In this document: positions 51,371-64,000 of the stretch, in pieces
How the letters are laid out: every line of letters starts with the position of its first letter
Position numbering within the stretch: position 1 is the first letter of the stretch
NCBI RefSeq assembly: GCF_900115755.1
Contig: NZ_FOXQ01000001.1
Coordinates: 124,001 to 188,000 of the forward strand
Direction of reading: 5' to 3'
Origin: Parafilimonas terrae
Lineage (GTDB): Bacteria; Bacteroidota; Bacteroidia; Chitinophagales; Chitinophagaceae
DNA: 64,000 nt
Made by a program: the position numbers and the translations under genes
The notes under the pieces: model-generated
What the model was told of the DNA's origin: nothing
Database searches by the model: none
Seen by the model: only the letters and a program-made list of their open reading frames with translations

Positions 51371-51922
51371 TTGAAAAAGATTATTACCATATTACTGATT
51401 GCTATTCATTTTTTTTATGCCTTTGGATACACGCTGTTTTTTTCAGTAATGGAGAGCGCTGCCGACCAGCGCATGATTGCATTATTGGATAACGATAATT
51501 ATGATGAAAGCGACCTGGTATTATTAAAGTTTGCATTGTATGCACCATACATTCAAAGCAGCGGCAGCTACCAGCGTTGCGACGGGCAAATTGAATTAAA
51601 CGGCACTCAATACAACTATGTAAAGCGGATGGTGCGCAATGATACTTTGTACCTGTATTGCATTGCCAACAAACAAAAAACAGACATTAGTAACACTAAG
51701 CATTTATATGCCCAGCAACACAGTGATAATTCAATAGATACAAAAACTGATCAGCCTTCTTTAAAACAGTTCAGCTTTATACAAGAATATAATATTGTAC
51801 CTACTGAAGTTATCTTCAATGCATATAATACTTCGCTAAATAAAACCCGGTCATTTAATAATCTCAATACGCAAAAAGGTTTTATACTTAAAACCATACA
51901 ACCTCCCGACTTGTTTATTTAA
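51371..51922 (+). CDS. Hypothetical protein with N-terminal signal or anchor
   Basis: A 183-residue protein starting at TTG 51371. Residues 3-28 are hydrophobic (KKIITILLIAIHFFYAFGY), then comes SVMESAADQRM and a mixed beta/loop region, ending QPPDLFI. Proteins of this shape accompany TonB-type receptors in Bacteroidota, but none is next to it. A TAAGTTTG promoter-like box touches the TTG, which makes either the start or the box doubtful. The function is unknown. Confidence 0.6.
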   Translation: MKKIITILLIAIHFFYAFGYTLFFSVMESAADQRMIALLDNDNYDESDLVLLKFALYAPYIQSSGSYQRCDGQIELNGTQYNYVKRMVRNDTLYLYCIANKQKTDISNTKHLYAQQHSDNSIDTKTDQPSLKQFSFIQEYNIVPTEVIFNAYNTSLNKTRSFNNLNTQKGFILKTIQPPDLFI

Positions 51923-52129: not shown

Positions 52130-52708
52130 ATGCCATATATTCCATTGGAAGAGCATTTACCCGGCATTACGGGCCTGCTTGAATATGATAAAATTGCTGC
52201 CGCCCCAATACGTGAGCTCACTCAAATTTTACTTCGCGGCGAAAGTACTTTAACCGAATGCGAACGCGAACTGATTGCAACGGTTGTATCAAACGGGAAC
52301 CAATGTAAATTCTGCACAGCGGCACATACGGCTGCTGCGGATATTTTATTGGGCGAAAATGAAACATCGCAAAAAGTAAAAGAGAATATTATTACTGCGC
52401 CTGTAAGCAATAAAATGAAAGCGTTGTTAACAATTGCATCGATGGTTCGCGAAAACGGTAAAGCTGTAACACAGGAAGCGATTAACAAAGCCAAAGCAGA
52501 AGGTGCTACCGACATAGAAATTCACGACACGGTTTTAATTGCAGCATTATTCTGTTTATACAACAGGTATGTTGATGGCCTTGCTACCGTAACACCGGCC
52601 GGGAGTGAATTCTATAAAGGATTAGCGGAGCGTTTAAAAAATCATGGCTATAACCGTTTGCCGCAAGGCTACGATCATTTGAAAAAAAATAAAACGGTCG
52701 CTCCATGA
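52130..52708 (+). CDS. CMD/AhpD-like protein, paralogue A
   Basis: A 192-residue all-helical protein of the carboxymuconolactone decarboxylase (CMD)/AhpD superfamily. The redox-type motif is Cys59-x-x-Cys62-x3-His66 (CKFCTAAH), and the family's second half reads KMKALLTIASMV and EIHDTVLIAALFCLYNRYVDG (split: EIHDTVLIAAL, FCLYNRYVDG). CxxC members are peroxidase or thiol-exchange enzymes. Compared with the three paralogues downstream it lacks the PGIRS-type start (PGITG here). Its stop overlaps the MFS start by four bases. The substrate is unknown. Confidence 0.88.
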   Translation: MPYIPLEEHLPGITGLLEYDKIAAAPIRELTQILLRGESTLTECERELIATVVSNGNQCKFCTAAHTAAADILLGENETSQKVKENIITAPVSNKMKALLTIASMVRENGKAVTQEAINKAKAEGATDIEIHDTVLIAALFCLYNRYVDGLATVTPAGSEFYKGLAERLKNHGYNRLPQGYDHLKKNKTVAP

Positions 52709-53967
52709 AGCAGGTTGAAGTAAATATTGAAGAGCGTATTATAATTACTGAAACTCTATACCAGCCTTCCGCCGCTACGAAACGAAGCCTGGCAATAGCA
52801 TTTATAGTTTGTTATATCAGCATTATGTTTAGTGGCATTTCATCCATGCTCATGTCGGTTTACCTGCCTGTTGCTGTAAAAGATTTATTAGGCAGCATAC
52901 CAGATGAAAGAATGAATTATATAAGTGCTTATATAAATTCGATCTTCATATTCGGCAGTATGTTTGGCGGCTTTGCCTGGGGTTTTGTTTGTGATAAAAT
53001 AGGCCGGTCAAAAGCGGTAGTATTTTCAACGGCATTATATGCATTATTTACGGCGCTCACCGCTTTCTCATCTTCATGGCTTATCGTTGGCGTTTATCGC
53101 TTTATAACCGGCTTTGGCGTTGGCGGTGTAATAGTAACCACCAATATTCTGATAGCCGAAATATGGCCTGAAAAAAAACGTGCTATTGCACTGGGAATAG
53201 TATCCGCTGCCATGCCTGTTGGTTTTATTGTGGCAGGTGCATTAAATAACCTGATACCTGAGTGGCGCAATGCATTTCTTTCAGGTATTATCCCGTTAAT
53301 CACAGCCGTTATAGCCATGTTTATTCTGGCAGAACCTGAAAGCTGGAAGCAGGCAAATCATGCACAGGATAATAAGGCAGGCAAACAAATTTTTTCACGC
53401 GATTACAGAAAAAATCTTATAAGCGGTTCCATCATTTTTGGTGCAATGCTGATTGGATTATGGGCCATTTTTTCATGGGCGCCAACATGGGTGCAAAGCA
53501 TCACGCCTGATAACAACAAAGCAGATGAACTGCGTGGCATAACGATGATGATACTGGCGTTATCCGGTTTAATCGGAAGCATTGTTTCTGGCTGGATAGT
53601 AAACAGGATCGGTATGCGGAAAACAATGATGCTGTGTTTTGCTGCAGGTTTTATAATGACGGCTGTTGTATTTAAACTTAATTCTTCCATAACCACTATA
53701 ACATTGGTTGAAATGGGCATAATGGCTTTCTTCTTTGGAATAAGCCAGGGCGCACTATCGGTTTATATACCTGCACTATTTCCAACGAAAGTAAGGGCAT
53801 CTGCAACAGGATTCTGTTTCAACATAGGCAGGTTATTTACAGCAACTGTTGTTTTCTTCATCGGCGCACTCGTATCATTTCTTGGCGGGTATGGCAATGC
53901 CATTTTTATTTTTTCATTCATTTTCATCATTGGATTGATAACAACAATTTTCTCAAAAGAGAAATAA
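52705..53967 (+). CDS. MFS transporter
   Basis: A 420-residue 12-helix permease of the metabolite:H+ symporter / sugar-porter type. The loop 2-3 signature is GFVCDKIGRSKAV, and a second copy (GWIVNRIGMRKTM) follows helix 8. The first periplasmic-side helix has SGISSMLMSVYLPVAV. Relatives carry aromatic or sugar acids. It is translationally coupled to CMD paralogue A (ATGA overlap), so it probably imports or exports that enzyme's substrate or product. Confidence 0.9.
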   Translation: MKQVEVNIEERIIITETLYQPSAATKRSLAIAFIVCYISIMFSGISSMLMSVYLPVAVKDLLGSIPDERMNYISAYINSIFIFGSMFGGFAWGFVCDKIGRSKAVVFSTALYALFTALTAFSSSWLIVGVYRFITGFGVGGVIVTTNILIAEIWPEKKRAIALGIVSAAMPVGFIVAGALNNLIPEWRNAFLSGIIPLITAVIAMFILAEPESWKQANHAQDNKAGKQIFSRDYRKNLISGSIIFGAMLIGLWAIFSWAPTWVQSITPDNNKADELRGITMMILALSGLIGSIVSGWIVNRIGMRKTMMLCFAAGFIMTAVVFKLNSSITTITLVEMGIMAFFFGISQGALSVYIPALFPTKVRASATGFCFNIGRLFTATVVFFIGALVSFLGGYGNAIFIFSFIFIIGLITTIFSKEK

Positions 53968-54062
53968 AACAGAATACTGCCCGATAAGCAAATACCGGCA
54001 GTTGCTTTTATAAATCAAAAATTGTACATCAAAAATCGTAAATCGTAAATCGTAAATTAATC

Positions 54063-54623
54063 ATGGCATACATAAACGTACCGGAGGGCGTTCCCGGAAT
54101 AAGAAGCCTGGTAATGTTTCGCCCGGAAACCGGCAAGCCATTATATGAGCTGGCACAGATGTTATTAAGAGGCAATTCAACATTAACTGAGGCTGAAAGA
54201 GAGCTGATAGCAGCTTATGTTTCCAAAAGAAATGATACCATGTTTTGCATGATGAGCCATGCCGCCGCATCACGCGCATTATATGGGAATGATAAAAATA
54301 TTGTGGATGATGTATTAAAAGACTTGCAGCAGGCAAACATCAGCAGCAAAATGAAATCGTTATTAAATATTGCAGGCAAAGTGCAAATTCTTGGCAAAGA
54401 AGTAAAGCCTGAAGATATTGAGGCTGCAAGAAAAGAAGGCGCTACTGATAAAGAGATTCATGATACGGTTTTAATCGCTGCGGCATTCAGCATGTTTAAC
54501 AGGTATGTTGATGGCCTTGCCAGCTTTACGCCAACCGATGAAAAAGAATATGAAGCAATGGGAAAACGCATGGCGGAGAAAGGATATGTAGCGCCTCAAC
54601 CAACCAATAATCAAAATCATTAA
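54063..54623 (+). CDS. CMD/AhpD-like protein, paralogue B (first motif Cys replaced)
   Basis: A 186-residue relative of paralogue A with the same blocks: PGIRSL, LTEAERELIAAYVS, KMKSLLNIAGKVQ, GATDKEIHDTVLIAA and MFNRYVDGLA. At the CxxC site it reads Thr59-x-x-Cys62-x3-His66 (TMFCMMSH), so one redox cysteine is lost and no disulfide can form there. It may have a non-redox role or pair with another paralogue. It lies 95 bases after the MFS gene, behind short aaatcgt repeats. Confidence 0.87.
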   Translation: MAYINVPEGVPGIRSLVMFRPETGKPLYELAQMLLRGNSTLTEAERELIAAYVSKRNDTMFCMMSHAAASRALYGNDKNIVDDVLKDLQQANISSKMKSLLNIAGKVQILGKEVKPEDIEAARKEGATDKEIHDTVLIAAAFSMFNRYVDGLASFTPTDEKEYEAMGKRMAEKGYVAPQPTNNQNH

Positions 54624-54658
54624 CCATTCCTGCTTGACGCGCAGGATAAACCTATGCT

Positions 54659-56905
54659 ATGCATTTAAAACGCTTTTTATATAACATATTGCTGGCAGTA
54701 ATATTCATTACATATAACTCGTGCAGCAACACTATTGATTCAAACCACGAAATGCAGGCGTTGCTGGCATCTGTTGCCAGCGCCAATGCTGTTCCTGCAA
54801 ATGATTATGCATCAGATGTTAAGCTGCGGCACATAGATTCTGTGCTTAATACTTCGGACAATGCAAGCCTTACGGCTGTTGCGTTATACAGCAAGGCCTG
54901 TATATCACTTCAGGCAGGCGATGAAAAATCTTCTGAAACAATCCTCAATGATCTGTTGAACAACCAGAATTTTCATGTTAATCAACGGATCGTAAAAAAA
55001 GAACTGGCGCTTACTTATTTGCGTATGGGCGAAAAGAGCAATTGCATGCTGAACCATACCGGCGAATCATGTATTTTTCCTGTAGCAGGCCAAGGCATTC
55101 ATTTCAATAAATACGGTTCTCAAAGGGCTATCGAGCTATATACAGAACTGCTGGATCAAAAACCCGACGACCTCGAAGCAAGGTGGCTGCTCAATATCGC
55201 TTATATGACTACCGGGCAATACCCGCAGGGCGTGCCTTCGGCTTACCTCATTAAAAACCTTGACAAAGACTCTTCGTCAGTACACATAAAACCTTTTACA
55301 GATGCTGCAATTAATATTGGCTTAAACACAAAAAACATGGCCGGCGGTACGCTTGTGGACGACCTGGATAACGATGGATACCTTGACATTGTAACTTCTT
55401 CATGGGACCTGGGTGGCCACATGCATTATTGCCGCAACAACAAAAATGCAAGTTTCAGCGACCTGTCACAATCATCAGGGTTAGAAGGTTTTACCGGTGG
55501 CCTTAACATCATGCAAACAGATTATAATAATGATGGTTTAAAAGACATTTTTGTGTTGCGTGGCGCTTGGAAAGGGCCTTTTGGCCGTGAGCCCAATTCG
55601 CTTTTGCGCAATAATGGCGATGGTACTTTTACTGATGTAACCAAGGAAAGCGGCCTGTTATCTCTTCATCCTACACAAACAGCCACATGGAACGATTTTA
55701 ATAAAGATGGATGGCTTGATGTTTTTATTGGCAATGAATCTTATGATCCGCCTTACGATGATAATGCCTGTGAATTATATATCAATAATAAGAACGGCAC
55801 GTTTACAAATGTGGCCATACAAAGCAAGGTTAACATAAGCGCATTTGTAAAGGGCGTTACCTCCGGCGATTATGATAACGATGGCTGGCCCGACATTTTT
55901 ATTTCAACGCTTAACAACAGGAAAGTGCTGCTGAAAAATGAGGGCATTGTAAACGGCGTTGTGCAGTTTAAAGATGTAACACAACAGGCAGGGTTAACCA
56001 ACTGCACAGCAAAAACGTTTGGCACCTGGTTTTGGGATTATGATAACGATGGCTGGCTTGACTTGTTTGTCGCCAATTATGATTTTTATAATACGGGCGC
56101 CTGGTACGCGGCTGCAGAAGCATTGCATTTGCCCACAGGCAACGCTGCAAAACAATATCTCTATCACAATAATCATGACGGCACATTTACTGATGTAACC
56201 GAAAAAGCAGGCCTTAATAAAATTGCTTTTGCTATGGGTTCTAATTTTGGCGACTTAGATAATGACGGTTACCCGGATATTTATCTCGGCACCGGCAATC
56301 CAAGCTTTGAATCATTAACCTCTAATAAATTATTTAAAAACGTTGATGGAAAAGCCTTTGCAGACGTTACCGTTTCGGCGCGTGTTGGCAACCTGCAAAA
56401 AGGCCATGGCGTTGCATTTGCCGATCTTGATAATGATGGCGATGAAGATATTTTTATTGAAGTGGGCGGTGCTTATACCGGTGATGCTTACCAGAATTCA
56501 TTGTATATAAACCCAGGCCAGAATAATAATAACTGGATAAATATTTCACTTGAAGGTGTTGCTACCAATAAGGTGGCAATAGGCGCCAGGATAAAAGTAA
56601 CATTTAAAGAGAACGGGGTTGAAAGGTCTGTATATCGCGATGTTAATTCGGGTGGAAGCTTTGGCGCCAAACCATTAACTCAACACATTGGTATAGGCCA
56701 GGCCACGTCAATTGAAAGCATTGAAATAAAATGGCCTGTTGGCGATGCAGTACAAGTGTTTAATAATATAAAACCCTGCACAAATATTCATATAAAACAA
56801 GGAGCCACCTCTTATACAACAACAAGGCTTACGAACTGTGACTTTCTTTCGCAGGAAGCTAATTTAATACGATGCGGCGTACCATTAAAACCATCAAACT
56901 TATAA
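54659..56905 (+). CDS. CRTAC1-like lipoprotein with FG-GAP/VCBS repeats and ASPIC/UnbV domain
   Basis: A 748-residue lipoprotein (lipobox Cys22). After an N-terminal helical, TPR-like part (to about 200, with NCMLNHTGESCIFP near 122-135) come seven calcium-type blade motifs of the form DxDNDGxxDI (for example LDNDGYLDI, YDNDGWPDI, LDNDGDEDI) making a beta-propeller, then an ASPIC/UnbV domain (about 620-720). Such proteins are exported and bind calcium or partners; the enzymatic role is not settled. It is set between CMD paralogues B and C with gaps of 35 and 10 bases, so it belongs to the same unit. Confidence 0.9.
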   Translation: MHLKRFLYNILLAVIFITYNSCSNTIDSNHEMQALLASVASANAVPANDYASDVKLRHIDSVLNTSDNASLTAVALYSKACISLQAGDEKSSETILNDLLNNQNFHVNQRIVKKELALTYLRMGEKSNCMLNHTGESCIFPVAGQGIHFNKYGSQRAIELYTELLDQKPDDLEARWLLNIAYMTTGQYPQGVPSAYLIKNLDKDSSSVHIKPFTDAAINIGLNTKNMAGGTLVDDLDNDGYLDIVTSSWDLGGHMHYCRNNKNASFSDLSQSSGLEGFTGGLNIMQTDYNNDGLKDIFVLRGAWKGPFGREPNSLLRNNGDGTFTDVTKESGLLSLHPTQTATWNDFNKDGWLDVFIGNESYDPPYDDNACELYINNKNGTFTNVAIQSKVNISAFVKGVTSGDYDNDGWPDIFISTLNNRKVLLKNEGIVNGVVQFKDVTQQAGLTNCTAKTFGTWFWDYDNDGWLDLFVANYDFYNTGAWYAAAEALHLPTGNAAKQYLYHNNHDGTFTDVTEKAGLNKIAFAMGSNFGDLDNDGYPDIYLGTGNPSFESLTSNKLFKNVDGKAFADVTVSARVGNLQKGHGVAFADLDNDGDEDIFIEVGGAYTGDAYQNSLYINPGQNNNNWINISLEGVATNKVAIGARIKVTFKENGVERSVYRDVNSGGSFGAKPLTQHIGIGQATSIESIEIKWPVGDAVQVFNNIKPCTNIHIKQGATSYTTTRLTNCDFLSQEANLIRCGVPLKPSNL

Positions 56906-56915
56906 AACAATAACT

Positions 56916-57467
56916 ATGGCATTTATCAATTTACAAAACGATTTGCCCGGTATTCGCGGGCCCATGCAATACAGTCCTGAAACAGGTGAGGCATTGAATG
57001 AACTGGCAGAAATTTTATTGCATGATGACAACAATACTTTATCACGCGGTGAACGTGAAATGATCGGCGCTTATGTATCCTCACAAAATGATTGTTTCTA
57101 TTGTCAGAACGTGCATGGTGCATTGGCGCAATATTATTTTGAATGCGACATGCAGCTGATTGATGATATTAAAAAAGACTACGAGTCAACGTCCATCTCA
57201 CCAAAATTAAAAGCATTATTAAGCATTGCGGGCAGCGTACAAAAAGGCGGCAGGCATGTTACACCAGCGCAGATAGAACATGCTAAAAACCTTGGTGCAA
57301 CTGATAAGGAAATACACGATACTGTTTTAATAGCGGCAGCTTTTTGCATGTTCAACCGTTATGTGGATGGATTGAACACATGGGCGCCGCAGGACAGGAA
57401 TGTGTATGTAGAACGGGCCGCAATGCGTGCAAAAGAAGGCTATGCAAATATTGATTTAAATAAATAA
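56916..57467 (+). CDS. CMD/AhpD-like protein, paralogue C
   Basis: A 183-residue member with an intact motif Cys60-x-x-Cys63-x3-His67 (CFYCQNVH). It shares with paralogue D the block KALLSIAGSVQKGGRHVT (residues about 105-122) and with all four GATDKEIHDTVL and FNRYVDGL. It starts 10 bases after the CRTAC1-like gene and ends 11 bases before the MetE-like gene. C and D look like the closest pair of the four. Confidence 0.88.
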   Translation: MAFINLQNDLPGIRGPMQYSPETGEALNELAEILLHDDNNTLSRGEREMIGAYVSSQNDCFYCQNVHGALAQYYFECDMQLIDDIKKDYESTSISPKLKALLSIAGSVQKGGRHVTPAQIEHAKNLGATDKEIHDTVLIAAAFCMFNRYVDGLNTWAPQDRNVYVERAAMRAKEGYANIDLNK

Positions 57468-57478
57468 AAACTACAACT

Positions 57479-58543
57479 ATGAAAATAAGAACATACCCAG
57501 TTGGCAGCGTTCCCCGGCCAAAATATTTAGTGGAGGCTTTAGGCGCATTTGCACAACAACAAATAAATGAAAACGAATTACAGCAACTTTTTGATAAAGC
57601 ATTAAAAGAAACCATACAGCGTTTTGAAGAAACGGGCTCGCCGGTTATAACAGATGGCGAGCAAACAAAACCAAGCTTTGCAACTTATCCAATCAGTGGT
57701 ATAAAAAATCTTTCACCAAATGGCGTGGTAATTCCTTTTGCAGACGGGCATACAAGGCAATTGCCGACCATAACATCAGGCCCGTTTCATTATACAAATT
57801 ATGCAGATGCTTATCTAAAGAAAGCAAAGCAGTTAACAACTTTGCCGGTTAAACAGGCGGTGATTTCTGTATCTGCTATCAGTTTATTATATCCGCAGGA
57901 AGGCATTGAAAATTATTCGCAGGAGCAGTTTATAAATGACCTGGTGAATGAAGCCGAAGCCGATATAAGAAGCTGTTTAAACGCCGGCGCTCATCTTGTA
58001 CAGGTGGATTTTACGGAAGGCAGGCTTGCTTTAAAACTTGATCCTTCAAAAAGTTTATTAAGATTATTCATTGATTTAAACAATAAAGTACTGGCCCGTT
58101 TTTCTGAAGAAGAGAGAAAAAAGATTGGCGTGCATTCCTGCCCGGGCGGCGATCATGATTCCACGCACAGTGCAGATATTAGTTACAATGATTTATTGCC
58201 TTTATTGTTTGAATTGAATGCAGGCAATTTTTTTCTCGAATATGCAGGCGAAAACAATAAAGAGGATGTTTTACAATGCATCAAAGAAAATCTTCGCCCC
58301 AATCAAACCGTATTTATCGGTGTAACAGATGTATTGAACCCACGCATTGAAACACCGGAAGAAATACGCGATGTTATTATTGAAGCATCAGCAAAAATTC
58401 CTTTGCAACGGCTTGGCACAACAGACGATTGCGGCTTCTCTCCTTTTGCCGATGATGTTTCCACTTCAAGAGATACAGCGTTTGCAAAAATTAAAGCGCG
58501 TGTGGAAGGAACGAAACTCGCTGAAGAAAAACTTTTTAAATAA
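57479..58543 (+). CDS. MetE C-domain-like zinc methyltransferase
   Basis: A 354-residue single-domain protein of the cobalamin-independent methionine synthase C-terminal (UROD/MetE-like) fold. Zinc ligands expected from the family are present: His219 and Cys221 (HSCPGG), Glu254 (FFLEYA) and Cys318 (TDDCGFSPF). Full MetE has a second, N-terminal half that is absent here. Stand-alone members activate thiols as methyl or alkyl acceptors, for example in demethylation or epoxide-coenzyme M chemistry. Its place inside the CMD cluster suggests that the pathway handles a methylated or thiol-linked compound; this is inference. Confidence 0.85.
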   Translation: MKIRTYPVGSVPRPKYLVEALGAFAQQQINENELQQLFDKALKETIQRFEETGSPVITDGEQTKPSFATYPISGIKNLSPNGVVIPFADGHTRQLPTITSGPFHYTNYADAYLKKAKQLTTLPVKQAVISVSAISLLYPQEGIENYSQEQFINDLVNEAEADIRSCLNAGAHLVQVDFTEGRLALKLDPSKSLLRLFIDLNNKVLARFSEEERKKIGVHSCPGGDHDSTHSADISYNDLLPLLFELNAGNFFLEYAGENNKEDVLQCIKENLRPNQTVFIGVTDVLNPRIETPEEIRDVIIEASAKIPLQRLGTTDDCGFSPFADDVSTSRDTAFAKIKARVEGTKLAEEKLFK

Positions 58544-58556
58544 GCATTGTAAAAAC

Positions 58557-58585
58557 CGGCCAGACGCTGTTAAAGCGCCTGGCCG
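58557..58585. repeat. Intercistronic hairpin 1 of a related pair
   Basis: cggccagacgct and agcgcctggccg fold into a stem with one mismatch around a short loop, in the 57 bases between the MetE-like and esterase genes. The core ggccagacgct is repeated in the hairpin at 60075. No long T-run follows. Confidence 0.6.
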
Positions 58586-58600
58586 TACAAACTATCTGCA

Positions 58601-60064
58601 ATGAATAAGTATAAAAAATGCTGTCTTTTAATTGCCATCACCATAAGCGTTTTACATGTTTATGGCCAAAAGTTCAGCGTGAGCTTTGCTCCAACGGCCT
58701 CTGATGAAAGTTTTACAGGCAAGGTGCTTTTGTTTCTTTCAAAGGAGTCCAAATCACCAAAAGACCAAATGGTTGGCGTTGAAAGATTTCCCTGTTTTGC
58801 CATCACGGTAAATAACATAAAGCCAGGCAGTAAAATTTTGTTTGATGATAACGCAGTTTCATATCCTGTTAAACTATCGGATATAGAAAGGGGGGAATAT
58901 AACGTACAGGTGGTGTGGGATAAGAATGAAGGCGGGCGCTCAATTGCTGAAAGCCCCGGCAATATATATAACGATGCAATAACTGTGCAGCTCACAAAGA
59001 ATACGGATGCAGTTTTTAATATTACCTGCAATAATGTAGTCAAAGAAAAAAGCTTTGTTGAAACACAATTTGTAAAGGAGCTGAAAGTGCCGTCGGCATT
59101 ACTTTCTGCATCTTACAAAAGACCAACAACTGTTAACGCAGCCATACTGCTGCCCAAAGAATATTATGAGGAGCCCGATCGAAAGTTCCCGGTGTTGTAT
59201 TGGGTTTCAGGCTATGGCGGCGACTATCATAATTATTCCGGCAAAAATGATCCTTCCATGCCGGTAGATACAACGCCATGCATAAGGGTTTATCTTGATG
59301 GTAATTGTTCACTTGGCCATTGCGTGTATGCCAACAGTGATAATAACGGGCCATGGGGCGATGCGCTTACGCAGGAACTTATTCCACAGGTTGAAAAAAC
59401 ATACAGGGTTAATAAAGCAAGGTTGCTGACAGGCCATAGCAGCGGCGGCTGGACAGTTTTATGGTTACAGACGCATTACCCAAAAGTGTTTGATGCATGC
59501 TGGTCAAGTTCACCTGACCCTGTTGATTTCAGGAGTTTTCAGCAGGTGAATTTATATGAAGACAAAAATATTTTTTATTCGAAGGATAGTTCATTAAGAG
59601 CAGCAGGCACTATTGCGGGCCGCTTTCCATGGATCACCATGAAAAACATGTTACAGATGGAACATGTAATATACCGCGGTGAACAGATGCATTCTTTTGA
59701 TGCAGTATTCAGTGTAAAAAATAATGACGGCTCTCCGCGAAGGTTATGCAATGAATCAACCGGTGAAATTGATCCTGTAACAGTTGAGCATTGGAAAAAC
59801 TATGACATCTCATTGTATGTAAGAAATAACTGGCAACAGCTTGAACCTGACCTTAAAGAAAAGATAAGGGTATCTGTGGGCGAGCAGGATAATTTCTTAT
59901 TGAATTATGCCGTGCATTTATTCGACGATGAAATGAAAAAGATCAATGCAGGTTTTGTGTTTGCCTATTATCCCGGCGATCATTTCACCGTATCAACGCC
60001 GGAATATAAAACGGCGGGCTATCAGTTCCTGGAACAGCAATACAATAAACTAAAAGACAAATAA
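58601..60064 (+). CDS. Secreted esterase (esterase D / PF00756-like)
   Basis: A 487-residue protein with a signal peptide (cleaved near VYGQ, residue 23). Residues about 25-150 form a beta-sandwich-like lead domain, followed by an alpha/beta-hydrolase of the putative esterase family. The nucleophile is Ser280 in GHSSGG and the catalytic His461 lies in PGDHFTV. Relatives release acyl or feruloyl groups from carbohydrates, or are peptidase- or siderophore-specific. It is flanked by two related hairpins and lies in the CMD cluster, so an esterified substrate taken up by SusC/D is plausible. Confidence 0.87.
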   Translation: MNKYKKCCLLIAITISVLHVYGQKFSVSFAPTASDESFTGKVLLFLSKESKSPKDQMVGVERFPCFAITVNNIKPGSKILFDDNAVSYPVKLSDIERGEYNVQVVWDKNEGGRSIAESPGNIYNDAITVQLTKNTDAVFNITCNNVVKEKSFVETQFVKELKVPSALLSASYKRPTTVNAAILLPKEYYEEPDRKFPVLYWVSGYGGDYHNYSGKNDPSMPVDTTPCIRVYLDGNCSLGHCVYANSDNNGPWGDALTQELIPQVEKTYRVNKARLLTGHSSGGWTVLWLQTHYPKVFDACWSSSPDPVDFRSFQQVNLYEDKNIFYSKDSSLRAAGTIAGRFPWITMKNMLQMEHVIYRGEQMHSFDAVFSVKNNDGSPRRLCNESTGEIDPVTVEHWKNYDISLYVRNNWQQLEPDLKEKIRVSVGEQDNFLLNYAVHLFDDEMKKINAGFVFAYYPGDHFTVSTPEYKTAGYQFLEQQYNKLKDK

Positions 60065-60074
60065 TATCAAGTTA

Positions 60075-60102
60075 AGGCCAGACGCTTTGAAGCGTCTGGC
60101 CT
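60075..60102. repeat. Intercistronic hairpin 2 of a related pair
   Basis: A perfect 13-bp stem (aggccagacgctt with aagcgtctggcct) and two-base loop lies 11 bases after the esterase stop. It shares ggccagacgct with the hairpin at 58557. It may attenuate transcription or protect the mRNA end. Confidence 0.7.
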
Positions 60103-60147
60103 ATATGCAACACGTCAAAAATCTCTAATCAAAATAAAAACCAAACT

Positions 60148-60708
60148 ATGCCGTACATAGATGTAGATCCCAACCTGCCGGGCATACGAAGCCTTATGGC
60201 TTTCAGCCCGCAAACAGCAGAACCTATGGGAAAGATTGCCAATTTAATGCTGCGTACCAATGAAGGCTTAACCATGGCTGAAAGGGAAATGATTGCCACG
60301 TATGTTTCTTATCTCAACGATTGTTTTTATTGCCAGCAATCGCATGGCGCCATTGTAAGCTGTTATTTGAATGATGATAATAAGCTCATCGATCAAATAA
60401 AAAATGATTATGAACAGGCTGAAATTTCCGGTAAGCTGAAAGCATTATTAAGCATTGCAGGCAGCGTGCAAAAAGGTGGCAGGCATGTAACGGAAGAGCA
60501 GGTTAAAAAAGCAAAAGAAGCAGGCGCAACAGATAAAGACATTCATGACACAGTTTTAATCACTGCTTTGTTCTGCCTGTTTAACCGCTATGTTGACGGG
60601 CTTGCTACCAATACGCCAACAGACCTTTCCACTTATCCGCCAAGAGCAAAACAAATCGCCGAACATGGCTATGGCAATCATATTTTTTCAACACCTCAGC
60701 CTGCATAA
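60148..60708 (+). CDS. CMD/AhpD-like protein, paralogue D
   Basis: A 186-residue member with Cys59-x-x-Cys62-x3-His66 (CFYCQQSH). The start PGIRSLMAFSPQT resembles paralogue B, and the KALLSIAGSVQKGGRHVT block matches paralogue C. It is the last of the four and lies 127 bases before the SusC gene. All four keep EIHDTVLI or DIHDTVLI and the FNRYVDGLA-type helix. Confidence 0.88.
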   Translation: MPYIDVDPNLPGIRSLMAFSPQTAEPMGKIANLMLRTNEGLTMAEREMIATYVSYLNDCFYCQQSHGAIVSCYLNDDNKLIDQIKNDYEQAEISGKLKALLSIAGSVQKGGRHVTEEQVKKAKEAGATDKDIHDTVLITALFCLFNRYVDGLATNTPTDLSTYPPRAKQIAEHGYGNHIFSTPQPA

Positions 60709-60835
60709 AACCAACTAACAATTTTTACAACAAACATCAAAACGCAAAATGAAACCAGGCATGATAATTTTTTCATAACAGAAGATATACATAACGGGGT
60801 TTCATGAGATCATTGAAAAAATAAAAAATATACGA

Positions 60836-63778
60836 ATGAAAAAGAGGCTATTAATTCACGTAATGCTATGTGTGCTGTGCTTTCCGTTGTTATTATCAGC
60901 ACAGGATAATGCGGTGAGCTTAAAGGTGCAGGAAACAAACGGGCAACCTATCGCCGGTGTAACTATTTCAATTGATAAAAAAAGAACGATGGTTACAGAT
61001 GCACAGGGCGCAGTTACCATACCCAATGCAAACAGTTCAATCATCGTGTTTAGCGCAACAGGTTTCAAATCCAAAACAATAAAAGCAGATACCTTAACGC
61101 AATCGACCATCATTCTTGAGCAAGACGTTGCCAACTTAGATGAAGTGATTGTAACCGGTTTATCCACCAATGTAAAAAGAAGAAACCTCGCCAATGCTGT
61201 GGCAACCATTTCTTCAAGAGAGTTAAGCAGCACAGCGCCTGCACAAACATTAGACGGCGCACTGGAAGGTAAAATTCCGGGCGCTTATATTAACGCTAAT
61301 TCAGGCGCACCGGGCGGTGGCATCACGGTTAAACTGCGTGGCGTTACATCGGTATATGGCAATACGCAGCCATTATATGTGGTGGATGGTGTGTTTATTG
61401 ATAACAGCGCTACTTCCGCCGGTTTAAATGCAGTTACATCTGCAGCCAGCGGCGGTGCAGCCACTTCAACACAGGATAACCCGTCAAACCGTATTGCTGA
61501 TATTAACCCGCAGGACATTCAAAATATTGAAATATTAAAAGGCGCTTCTGCTGCTGCTATATATGGTTCAAAAGCTGCTGCCGGCGTTATCATCATCACC
61601 ACAAAAAAAGGCAGGCAGGGAAAAACAGCTATTAATGTATCGCAGGACCTTGGGCTGATAACCGTAAGAAAATTATTAGGTGTAAGAGAATTTACTGCCG
61701 ACCGTGCTGCAAGCTTATCAAGCGACCCCGCTACAAGCGAAGCATTAAAAAAACAATTTACTGATGCGCAGGCCGCAGGCCATATCTATGATTATGAAAA
61801 AGAAATGTATGGCAACACAGGCTTTGCACGCAATACAGAATTAAGCTTGACCGGTGGCGGCGAACAAACATCTTTCTTCTTTTCTGCATCACAAAAAGAT
61901 GAAGGTGGCATTGTAAAGAATACGGGTTATCGCAATACAGGTTTAAGGCTTAATATTGACCATCGTATTTCAGATAATATAAAGATTGGCATAACAACAA
62001 ACTATATCAACTCTTCTGCAGACAGGGGTTTGTTTGGCAATGATAACGTTGGCGCAACCATTGGCGTAGCGCTTTCTTCAACGCCATCGTTTGCAGAGTT
62101 GCATCCTGATGCAAACGGCAATTATCCTGCAAATAATTTTGCAGCTTCCAATCCTTTGCAAACAATTGCATTGATGAAGAACAACGAATCTGTAAACCGT
62201 TTTATAACAGGCCTGAACCTTGAAGCCACGTTGCAAAACAGCGGTAAAAGCACCACAAAATTCATTGCGAGGGGCGGCGTTGATTTCTATAACCTTCAGA
62301 CATCGGCATTATTTCCCGGCACCTTACAATGGCAGGCGGTAAATAAAGGCACATCCATACAGGGCTTTACAAAAAATTTAAGCACGAATTATATTGCTTC
62401 GCTGGTGAACACATTCACGCCTTCTGATAATGTATCATTAACAACATCTGCGGGCTTCACACAGGAAACAGGCGATTACAATAACCTGCTGAATGTGGCA
62501 ACACAGGTGATAGCAGGCCAGAGCAATGTAAGCCAGGCAGGCGCTTTGAATGCAACACAGCTTCGCACCAAATATCTTAACTCGGGCGTTTTTATACAGG
62601 AAGAAGCCAGCATTATTGATGCGGTTACTTTAACGGCCGGTGTGCGTTTCGACAGGAGCAGCAATAACGGCGATGCCGCAAAGTTTTATACTTATCCTAA
62701 AGCAGGCTTATCATGGAACCTTACAAGATCGGGCATTGTTGATGAAGGTTTTTTCAACAATATAAAGCTGCGTGCAGCTTATGGGCAGGCTAATAATGTG
62801 CCCGCTTATGGCAGCAAATTTACAGGCATGGCCATATCGAATATTGCAGGCAATCCCGGTGTAATTGTGAATATACAGCAGGGCGATGCCAACATTAAAC
62901 CAGAACGTCAGAAAGAACTGGAAGCAGGTATTGACTTCAGCGTTTTAAATAACAGGTTAAGTTTTGAATTGACTTATTATAATAAAAGCATCAGCGATTT
63001 TCTTATGCTGCAAAGCCTGCCATCTTCATCAGGCTTTTCAAGCAAATGGCTGAATGCAGGCGACCTGCGCAACCATGGTGTTGAGTTAGGTTTGAATGCC
63101 ATTCCTGTTCAGTCAAAATCTGTAACATGGAATACATCGGTTAATTTCTGGCTCAACAGGTCGAAAGTTATAAGGCTTATTATTCCGCCGATACCGCAGG
63201 GTTCTTTTGGTTATGTGCTGGGCTCATTCCAGGTTGAACAAGGAAAATCCGCCACACAGATCGTTGGTTTAGATGGCGATAACGGGGTTGGTGTTTTAGG
63301 CGACGCAGAGCCAACATTCCAGATGAATACTTATAATGAAGTTACTTTCTTTGGCAGGCTGAGCCTGCGTTTCTTATTGCATTGGAAAAATGGCGGCGAT
63401 AATATTAACCTCACTTCACTGCAAAGCGATTTTGGCGGCACCAGTGCCGATTATGATAAGGTAACAAATAAAATGGGTGTGCCCGATGCTGTTTACCGCA
63501 TTATGCAAATAGGCACAACGGCACGCATATTTGTGGAAGATGCAAGCTACCTGCGTTTGCGTGAAGCGGGTTTGTATTACACGTTCAACGAATTTCATAA
63601 CAGCTTTATCAAAAGCATCAACGTTGGCGTATCATTCAACAATTATTTAACCTTCACAAAATACAGGTCTTACGATCCTGAAGTATCCAACTTCGGAACA
63701 GGGTTCTCTACCGGTGTGGATGTATTGCCTTACCCCGCAAGCAAACGCGCAGCATTTCATATTTCATTCAGCTTTTAA
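60836..63778 (+). CDS. susC: SusC/RagA-family TonB-linked outer-membrane receptor
   Basis: A 980-residue outer-membrane transporter. Order: signal peptide (to about residue 22), a carboxypeptidase-like lead domain (VQETNGQPIAGVTISID, about 28-100), the TonB box and plug (LDEVIVTGLS; PLYVVDGVFID near 180; ASAAAIYGSKAA near 240) and a 22-stranded barrel ending in HISFSF. It takes up an oligomer or large nutrient together with the SusD lipoprotein encoded 17 bases later. The substrate cannot be read. It closes the CMD cluster and may import that pathway's substrate. Confidence 0.95.
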   Translation: MKKRLLIHVMLCVLCFPLLLSAQDNAVSLKVQETNGQPIAGVTISIDKKRTMVTDAQGAVTIPNANSSIIVFSATGFKSKTIKADTLTQSTIILEQDVANLDEVIVTGLSTNVKRRNLANAVATISSRELSSTAPAQTLDGALEGKIPGAYINANSGAPGGGITVKLRGVTSVYGNTQPLYVVDGVFIDNSATSAGLNAVTSAASGGAATSTQDNPSNRIADINPQDIQNIEILKGASAAAIYGSKAAAGVIIITTKKGRQGKTAINVSQDLGLITVRKLLGVREFTADRAASLSSDPATSEALKKQFTDAQAAGHIYDYEKEMYGNTGFARNTELSLTGGGEQTSFFFSASQKDEGGIVKNTGYRNTGLRLNIDHRISDNIKIGITTNYINSSADRGLFGNDNVGATIGVALSSTPSFAELHPDANGNYPANNFAASNPLQTIALMKNNESVNRFITGLNLEATLQNSGKSTTKFIARGGVDFYNLQTSALFPGTLQWQAVNKGTSIQGFTKNLSTNYIASLVNTFTPSDNVSLTTSAGFTQETGDYNNLLNVATQVIAGQSNVSQAGALNATQLRTKYLNSGVFIQEEASIIDAVTLTAGVRFDRSSNNGDAAKFYTYPKAGLSWNLTRSGIVDEGFFNNIKLRAAYGQANNVPAYGSKFTGMAISNIAGNPGVIVNIQQGDANIKPERQKELEAGIDFSVLNNRLSFELTYYNKSISDFLMLQSLPSSSGFSSKWLNAGDLRNHGVELGLNAIPVQSKSVTWNTSVNFWLNRSKVIRLIIPPIPQGSFGYVLGSFQVEQGKSATQIVGLDGDNGVGVLGDAEPTFQMNTYNEVTFFGRLSLRFLLHWKNGGDNINLTSLQSDFGGTSADYDKVTNKMGVPDAVYRIMQIGTTARIFVEDASYLRLREAGLYYTFNEFHNSFIKSINVGVSFNNYLTFTKYRSYDPEVSNFGTGFSTGVDVLPYPASKRAAFHISFSF

Positions 63779-63795
63779 TTCCAACATATACTATC

Positions 63796-64000
63796 ATGAA
63801 AAAATATAATCATATACAAACATTATTTTTTGCAGGAATTATTCTATTCTTTTCTGCCTGCAAAAAAGATTACGGCAATTTAAACGGGCCCACTGTTGAA
63901 GCTTATCAAAACAATGCCACCGCAGCAGAGCTTAATAACCTTGTGAGCGGCATAGAATCGGGCATGCGCAATTCCATTGCTTTTTATTTGGATGATGTGG
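63796..64000 (+). CDS. susD: SusD/RagB-like surface lipoprotein (N-terminal part, cut by window end)
   Basis: The first 68 residues are visible: signal peptide and lipobox Cys22 (FFSACKKD), then helix-forming residues (AELNNLVSGIESGMRN). It follows the SusC gene by 17 bases, the normal order. SusD proteins bind the nutrient on the cell surface and lid the SusC barrel. The rest lies beyond the window. Confidence 0.88.
   Translation, partial: MKKYNHIQTLFFAGIILFFSACKKDYGNLNGPTVEAYQNNATAAELNNLVSGIESGMRNSIAFYLDDV

Follow-up and report, generated by a model that had tools for sequence, protein, structure and literature searches.

Four divergent genes for AhpD-like proteins of the carboxymuconolactone decarboxylase (CMD) family, which have been named CMD1 to CMD4, stand in a cluster within a 64,000-nucleotide stretch of the Parafilimonas terrae genome (the window; bases 124001-188000 of contig 32 in a 4.99-Mb draft). 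With moderate confidence we consider this cluster to represent a conserved uptake-and-thiol-redox cassette in Bacteroidota. Comparison of gene neighbourhoods has shown a co-directional unit composed of a TonB-type receptor, either a SusC/SusD pair or a stand-alone protein, a permease of the major facilitator superfamily (MFS) and two to four AhpD-like proteins, often with a DUF3179 protein and a small transmembrane protein as further members. At least two CMD genes, the MFS gene and a receptor gene were found together in 79 of 112 loci which had been selected by similarity to CMD2 alone, and for which the partner genes were therefore not selected. Recurrence of the partners across these loci leads us to reject a chance collection, and indicates that the four look-alike genes are part of a real system, probably one for uptake.

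The cluster is composed of eleven consecutive + strand genes at 51371-65097 (window numbering; the end lies beyond the window), in the following order.

51371..51922, + strand: small membrane-anchored protein ("tail" family), unnamed in both Pfam and NCBIfam
52130..52708, + strand: CMD1, AhpD-like (CKFC...H); PF02627 43.3 bits, TIGR01926 87.4 bits
52705..53967, + strand: MFS permease; PF07690 147.5 bits, TIGR00895 167.1 bits (cut-off of 418.55 not reached)
54063..54623, + strand: CMD2, AhpD-like, with Thr-Met-Phe-Cys replacing CxxC; PF02627 36.1 bits, TIGR01926 84.4 bits
54659..56905, + strand: FG-GAP/UnbV_ASPIC protein, lipoprotein-like N-terminus (by eye), accessory; PF13517 159.5 bits, PF07593 45.2 bits (gathering score 23.4)
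56916..57467, + strand: CMD3, AhpD-like (CFYC...H); PF02627 57 bits, TIGR01926 83.2 bits
57479..58543, + strand: MetE-like enzyme (Meth_synt_2), accessory; PF01717 53.6 bits
58601..60064, + strand: esterase, signal-peptide-like N-terminus (by eye), accessory; PF00756 60.3 bits
60148..60708, + strand: CMD4, AhpD-like (CFYC...H); PF02627 49.5 bits, TIGR01926 96.6 bits
60836..63778, + strand: SusC/RagA-type TonB-linked outer-membrane protein; TIGR04056 494.8 bits (cut-off 368.25)
63796..64000, + strand: SusD, start only in the window; PF07980 69.8 bits

Open reading frames were called mechanically, while the assignment of signal peptides and lipoboxes is visual. The frames confirm the four CMD genes where a sequence-only reading of the window had put them, on the + strand with products of 183-192 residues, as well as the coupling of the MFS gene to CMD1 by an ATGA overlap of 4 bases (MFS start at 52705). 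Family scans agree with the neighbours which it had named (MFS, FG-GAP/UnbV_ASPIC, Meth_synt_2, PF00756 esterase, SusC, and SusD); the small transmembrane gene at 51371-51922 was missing from its list. The whole SusD gene (L009:13797-15098) ends at position 65097 and lies mostly outside the window, and downstream of it, on the opposite strand, there is a di-haem cytochrome c peroxidase gene (CCP_MauG; L009:16748-17806). A consensus pattern of Bacteroidota promoters matched four times in the window against 7.2 expected, with no match in the cluster. Anti-phage defence was set aside, as no PADLOC model matched the six of the eleven cluster proteins that were scanned.

For the collection of loci, CMD2 was searched against 394 genomes of the family, of which 69 (own genome included) match at E<=1e-35. 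There were 42 other family genomes with a CMD2 match of at least 60% identity; three were already in the set and 39 were added, and one locus at 58% identity (L065), which is without the cassette, was also kept. The scan of named genomes retained the best 80 of at least 580 relatives, and weaker relatives, which more often stand alone, are under-represented for this reason. Dropping 12 of 44 G-labelled rows, with CMD ends identical to those of named genomes, left the 112 non-identical loci. Paralogues were labelled by their best BLAST hit among the proteins of the window genome, and the labels are approximate outside its own family.

At least three CMD genes stand in one co-directional run in 88 of the 112 loci (three in 57 loci, four in 29, and six in two); a further 17 loci carry two CMD genes in the run around CMD2 and seven carry one, i.e., at least two are present in 105. 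Partners in the same run are the MFS gene (94 loci), the tail transmembrane gene (70), the DUF3179 gene (45), and a receptor of either type (80), which is a stand-alone TonB receptor (family TBDR922) in 49 loci and SusC plus SusD in 32. Gene order is conserved as well: in 90 cases the MFS gene immediately precedes CMD2, in 77 CMD2 immediately precedes CMD3, and in 51 gene pairs the tail gene immediately precedes CMD1. The median gap over 625 neighbour pairs is 25 bases. The strand of CMD2 is shared by 96 of 98 MFS, 80 of 80 tail, 49 of 50 stand-alone receptor, 46 of 47 DUF3179, 29 of 29 PAP2, and 16 of 16 MetE-like genes. Co-occurrence of the CMD genes with their neighbours, on which the earlier proposal had been staked, is thus seen with the MFS gene and with SusC/SusD or a TonB receptor; MetE-like, UnbV or esterase genes join them in a minority of loci. 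Named carriers include Mucilaginibacter, Pedobacter, Spirosoma, Larkinella, Segetibacter, Ohtaekwangia, Flavobacterium, and a Saprospiraceae metagenome-assembled genome.

The reach of the cassette was addressed by a phylum-wide scan of 395 genomes, 13 of which had a CMD2 match at E<=1e-58; nine of these places were newly opened (G510 was left out). Two (G576 and G635) are full cassettes, and G663, which is from another family, carries genes for an MFS protein, four CMD proteins, a TonB receptor, and UnbV-like and PAP2-like proteins, all on one strand. A Spirosoma plasmid has the order CMD-receptor-MFS-CMD-CMD. Metagenome-assembled genomes labelled Bryobacteraceae and Acidobacteria (L131 and L140) show CMD pairs joined to a different outer-membrane barrel (PF25183), in L131 also with another MFS protein, nearest to lactate/oxalate carriers.

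The two receptor types occur together in one locus only; 48 loci have just the stand-alone receptor and 31 just SusC/SusD, a mutual avoidance with a Fisher P of 7e-9. CMD4-labelled genes were found in 29 of 32 SusCD loci versus eight of 49 loci with the stand-alone receptor. An outer-membrane importer which is swapped while the rest is kept is the pattern that we would expect of an uptake system, and the exchange fits the outer-membrane import at which the sequence-only reading had guessed. The MFS protein is distantly like both aromatic-acid/H+ symporters and SLC22 organic anion transporters; the latter lead its sequence matches in the PDB, which also include a lactate transporter. As to the other recurrent partners, the AlphaFold2 model of a tail-family member (predicted local distance difference test score, pLDDT, 82.5) consists of an N-terminal helix (2-40) plus strands, and gave no PDB fold match at E<=0.001. 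In DUF3179 a Cys pair (154, 157) is invariant in 43 aligned proteins and follows, at a distance of 16-20 residues, a His-His pair (137, 138) which is invariant too. The model of one DUF3179 protein (L142:11278-12423; pLDDT 92) has N-terminal helices, and its fold search returned weak Rieske-like matches with a probability of up to 0.97, none of them at E<=0.001.

All four CMD proteins match PF02627 and exceed the TIGR01926 cut-off of 81.8 bits, with CMD2, CMD3 and CMD4 being 45%, 40% and 43% identical to CMD1. The motifs PGI, ERE[LM]I, IHDTVLI and NRYVDGL are shared by all four as had been claimed, whereas the CxxCx3H site, which had likewise been ascribed to all, is found in CMD1, CMD3 and CMD4 only and reads T-M-F-C-x3-H in CMD2. 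That they are old paralogues kept side by side is borne out by copies from four genomes, which group by copy and not by genome. PDB relatives of CMD4 (2prr, 2pfx, 6k40, 3c1l, and 2oyo) belong to the AhpD-like subfamily TIGR01926 ("peroxidase-related enzyme"). By eye no signal peptide was seen on the AhpD-like paralogues. Ring chemistry of the decarboxylase type, also part of the earlier guess, is disfavoured: CxxC is present in three of the four copies and is absent from the gamma-CMD proteins compared in PMC3141380, and TIGR01926 is passed by all four, which we therefore class from their sequences as AhpD-like proteins and not classical decarboxylases. Selenoprotein forms of both TIGR01926 (CxxU) and DUF3179 (UxxC/T) are tabulated in a 2026 review (PMC13188914) and thus support redox chemistry of both families.

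Three close paralogues are encoded elsewhere in the genome. The one on contig 27 lies in a one-strand locus (L011:5206-12479) with genes for a transmembrane protein, a beta-barrel-like protein, PAP2, the single CMD, a DoxX-like protein, and a FecA-like TonB receptor; PAP2 adjoins CMD, and the DoxX match and, in NCBIfam, the siderophore/FecA-like receptor match are sub-threshold. The two on contig 22 (L012:7698-8906) form an adjacent AhpD-like pair, divergent from the gene of a large ThuA/cytochrome c type protein (by eye), and a pair resembling it is also present in L065.

In PA0269 and M. tuberculosis AhpD a proton relay of five residues, Glu-Cys-His/Tyr-Cys-His, has been described (PMC3141380). 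CMD3 and CMD4 keep all five of these residues, CMD1 four (Phe at the remaining one), and CMD2 three. Across the 332 rows labelled CMD1-4 the Glu and the His are kept in every one and the second Cys in 331. The sole labelled row without the second Cys is an extra CMD2-like copy in L126 (6102-6686) which reads S-M-F-V and may be inactive. The first Cys is kept throughout CMD3 (90/90 rows) and CMD4 (44/44), and is replaced by Thr in 8/90 CMD1 and 16/108 CMD2 rows and by Ser in one further CMD2 row. Among the 363 tips of a FastTree tree, actinobacterial relatives included, there are 322 with Cys, 40 with Thr and one with Ser, and parsimony gives at least five changes between Cys and Thr. Because the first Cys is replaced by Thr almost every time, this near-constant replacement suggests selection for a Thr-x-Phe/Tyr-Cys site and not decay. 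CMD2 as a dying gene is disfavoured by the repeated changes between Cys and Thr and by its conservation (60-87% identity over 42 aligned rows). A link between loss of the first Cys and loss of a third Cys (RCLYG) in CMD2 gave no rule on the larger set, where the states of the first and third Cys were C/C 56, C/other 35, T/C 1, T/other 15, and S/other 1. It should be noted that TTHA0727 has Ser at the first-Cys position, which was read as lost peroxidase activity (PMC3141380); by this precedent the Thr copies may not be classical peroxidases.

Under the reading of an uptake-and-thiol-redox cassette, the receptor would carry a small organic compound, at a guess an oxidised or aromatic organic anion, across the outer membrane, and the MFS protein would move it into the cytosol, import being the presumed direction. 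The AhpD-like paralogues would then reduce or otherwise transform it via the second Cys, with the first Cys or Thr, the Glu and the His acting as its relay. They may form a mixed oligomer with CMD2 as the one-Cys member, and DUF3179 may supply electrons at the membrane. The exported accessories (esterase, UnbV protein, and haloperoxidase-like PAP2), which vary from locus to locus, could prepare the compound outside and widen the range of starting material, while the MetE-like enzyme would act inside on a thiol or methyl group.

Several observations weigh against this reading. The full core, as we define it, is absent from 33 of the 112 loci, among them L131 and L140 with their other receptor families; in 19 of the 33 the run reaches the end of the fetched piece, and in 14 it does not. 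Six of the nine outlying places opened in the phylum-wide scan hold one CMD gene only and neither this MFS nor this receptor; in one of the six, a gene two positions away gave a weak UnbV-like match. Such lone relatives at the edge of the group mean that the cassette is not universal. The neighbour statistics are not phylogenetically independent, as related genomes are counted separately. The MFS protein is below every NCBIfam cut-off listed. Finally, by eye and with no profile search made, no thiol reductant gene was recognised among the recurrent neighbours, the sole exception being a gene of thioredoxin-like appearance in four Mucilaginibacter pieces which are related to one another.

The main rival, which we consider unlikely, is an oxidant-defence locus whose AhpD-like paralogues would remove peroxides or hypohalous acids, with a secondary role for the transporters. 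In its support, AhpD-like RclX shields Pseudomonas aeruginosa from hypochlorous acid (HOCl) and hypothiocyanous acid (HOSCN) (PMC7950407) and PA0269 is a weak H2O2 peroxidase (PMC3141380). A putative haloperoxidase, PAP2, is encoded in 17 of the 112 cassette runs and beside the paralogue on contig 27, and a PAP2-like gene is present in the distant locus G663 described above. Nevertheless, the steadiest partners of the CMD genes are the MFS protein and the receptor, which are needless for detoxification, 17 of 108 CMD2 rows do not have the first Cys, and PAP2 is absent from 95 runs, its haloperoxidase identity being putative with VCPO_2nd matches below the Pfam cut-off. A trehalase-like protein (by eye) is encoded in the pieces of five loci (L033, L056, L084, L087, and L090), four of which also carry PAP2 genes. 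Quite unlikely, in our view, is the catabolism of esterified or methoxylated aromatics, the guess of the sequence-only reading, with SusCD import, a feruloyl-type esterase, MetE-like demethylation, and CMD-type ring chemistry. The esterase does match a ferulic acid esterase in the PDB, the MFS protein is distantly like aromatic-acid symporters and in Sphingobium SYK-6 a lignin-derived aromatic is taken up by way of the TonB receptor DdvT (PMC6874591, PMC8599685), yet family scans found no ring-cleaving dioxygenase among the proteins of the cluster, and the gamma-CMD proteins discussed above are without CxxC. De-esterification and demethylation also fail as the defining pathway, with the esterase in four, the UnbV protein in seven and the MetE-like enzyme in 16 of the 112 runs; as these enzymes are optional, this is not the core chemistry. 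The MetE-like protein itself falls short of the NCBIfam cut-off (best 83.8 bits versus 406). At the zinc-ligand positions of MetE, the residues His, Cys, Glu and Cys are kept in 16, 16, 14 and 15 of 16 cassette homologues. A MetE-like relative is present in seven of 147 family genomes, own included; at three of the six other places (G007, G127, and G043) it belongs to a CMD cluster whose neighbours are those seen here, and in the remaining three the gene is near PAP2-like or UnbV genes instead.

Very unlikely is the uptake of a reactive natural product which is disarmed or used, the Thr-x-Phe-Cys proteins being one-Cys capture enzymes. When CMD2 was searched against 72,556 plasmid records, the 47 matches at E<=1e-20 came from Streptomyces (45), Nonomuraea (one) and Spirosoma (one), and a search with a Streptomyces copy returned 45 records at E<=1e-30. 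Sixteen matched records were opened, 14 of them from Streptomyces. In the stretch viewed, eight of these 14 carry annotations of the enediyne type (SgcE6, SgcJ/EcaC, KedN5, enediyne biosynthesis protein or chromoprotein), three more have GMC oxidoreductase, thioesterase and TIGR03084 genes in common with the C-1027 cluster, and three have neither. In the C-1027 plasmid (NZ_CP013739) about 12 kb separate the CMD gene from a type I polyketide synthase (PKS), with a CRTAC1 gene in the same stretch; CRTAC1 genes of the UnbV family, a family named from enediyne clusters, are found in three of the Streptomyces stretches. Thr replaces the first Cys in 15 of 16 Streptomyces proteins on the tree, and also in L160, which is near-identical to L166 and was left off; these proteins are 44-51% identical to their best paralogue in the window genome in 16 of 17 frames and 31% in the other. 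On the other side there is no PKS among the proteins of the window cluster (family scan), the similarity of the UnbV proteins of the window and of Streptomyces is low (23% over 480 columns), the first Cys is never lost in CMD3 and CMD4, and the Nonomuraea pair has CxxC. Two records have the CMD gene between the gene of a secreted-looking protein, which in one of them gave a sub-threshold GDSL match, and an opposite-strand MFS gene. The Streptomyces-plasmid loci (L155, L158, L159, L161-L163, L165-L167, and L169-L172) nearly all show Thr-x-Phe/Tyr-Cys. A bolder version, a long shot in our estimation, would have Bacteroidota at large capture a reactive natural product that is sensitive to thiols, such as an enediyne, polyyne or peroxide, by a receptor and MFS protein dedicated to it, and disarm or exploit it by an AhpD-like hetero-oligomer, with a one-Cys Thr-x-Phe-Cys type common to enediyne producers.

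No system of such composition was found in the open-access literature, as the sequence-only reading had supposed, and the uptake-and-thiol-redox cassette is apparently undescribed. Its parts are of known kinds (AhpD-like proteins, SusCD, TonB receptor, and MFS); the combination and the paralogue set are new. With the TIGR01926 proteins it shares the cut-off passed by all four and the kept Glu, second Cys and His, and it differs by its three to four divergent paralogues in an operon-like run with transporters and by the Thr-x-Phe-Cys of CMD2. Adjacent SusC and SusD and a secreted-looking esterase recall Sus-type polysaccharide utilization loci, from which the cassette differs in that a stand-alone TonB receptor can take the place of SusCD, the MFS protein is near-constant, and no glycoside hydrolase or polysaccharide lyase was found among the eleven cluster proteins scanned. 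The pairing of one TonB receptor with one MFS protein, for what would be a small organic acid, is a likeness to DdvT and DdvK of Sphingobium SYK-6, DdvK being the MFS partner of DdvT. However, the cassette MFS is far below the aromatic-acid symporter cut-off, and the known catabolic enzymes of that pathway were not recognised in the cassette. RclX is likewise AhpD-like, has a CxxC site and is linked to reactive chlorine species, but it is described as a single-gene operon, with no receptor, MFS protein or paralogues mentioned in the portion of that report consulted (PMC7950407). Enediyne-type clusters of Streptomyces share related Thr-x-Phe/Tyr-Cys proteins and UnbV-family CRTAC1, and differ in being biosynthetic with a PKS, which the window cluster does not have; a title search of the open-access literature found nothing on TIGR01926-like proteins of such clusters.

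The finding gives proteins whose annotation says no more than "carboxymuconolactone decarboxylase" or "peroxidase-related" a place in a testable system, namely a recurring paralogue set with its own receptor and permease. Going by their record titles, some carriers are in culture, e.g., Segetibacter koreensis DSM 18137 and Spirosoma panaciterrae DSM 21099. Enediyne-type clusters offer, by their link to the cassette, a second and independent entry to the chemistry. A known substrate would assign a physiological role to this branch of AhpD proteins, and would also tell whether proteins with Thr-x-Phe-Cys form a catalytic type of their own, with one Cys.

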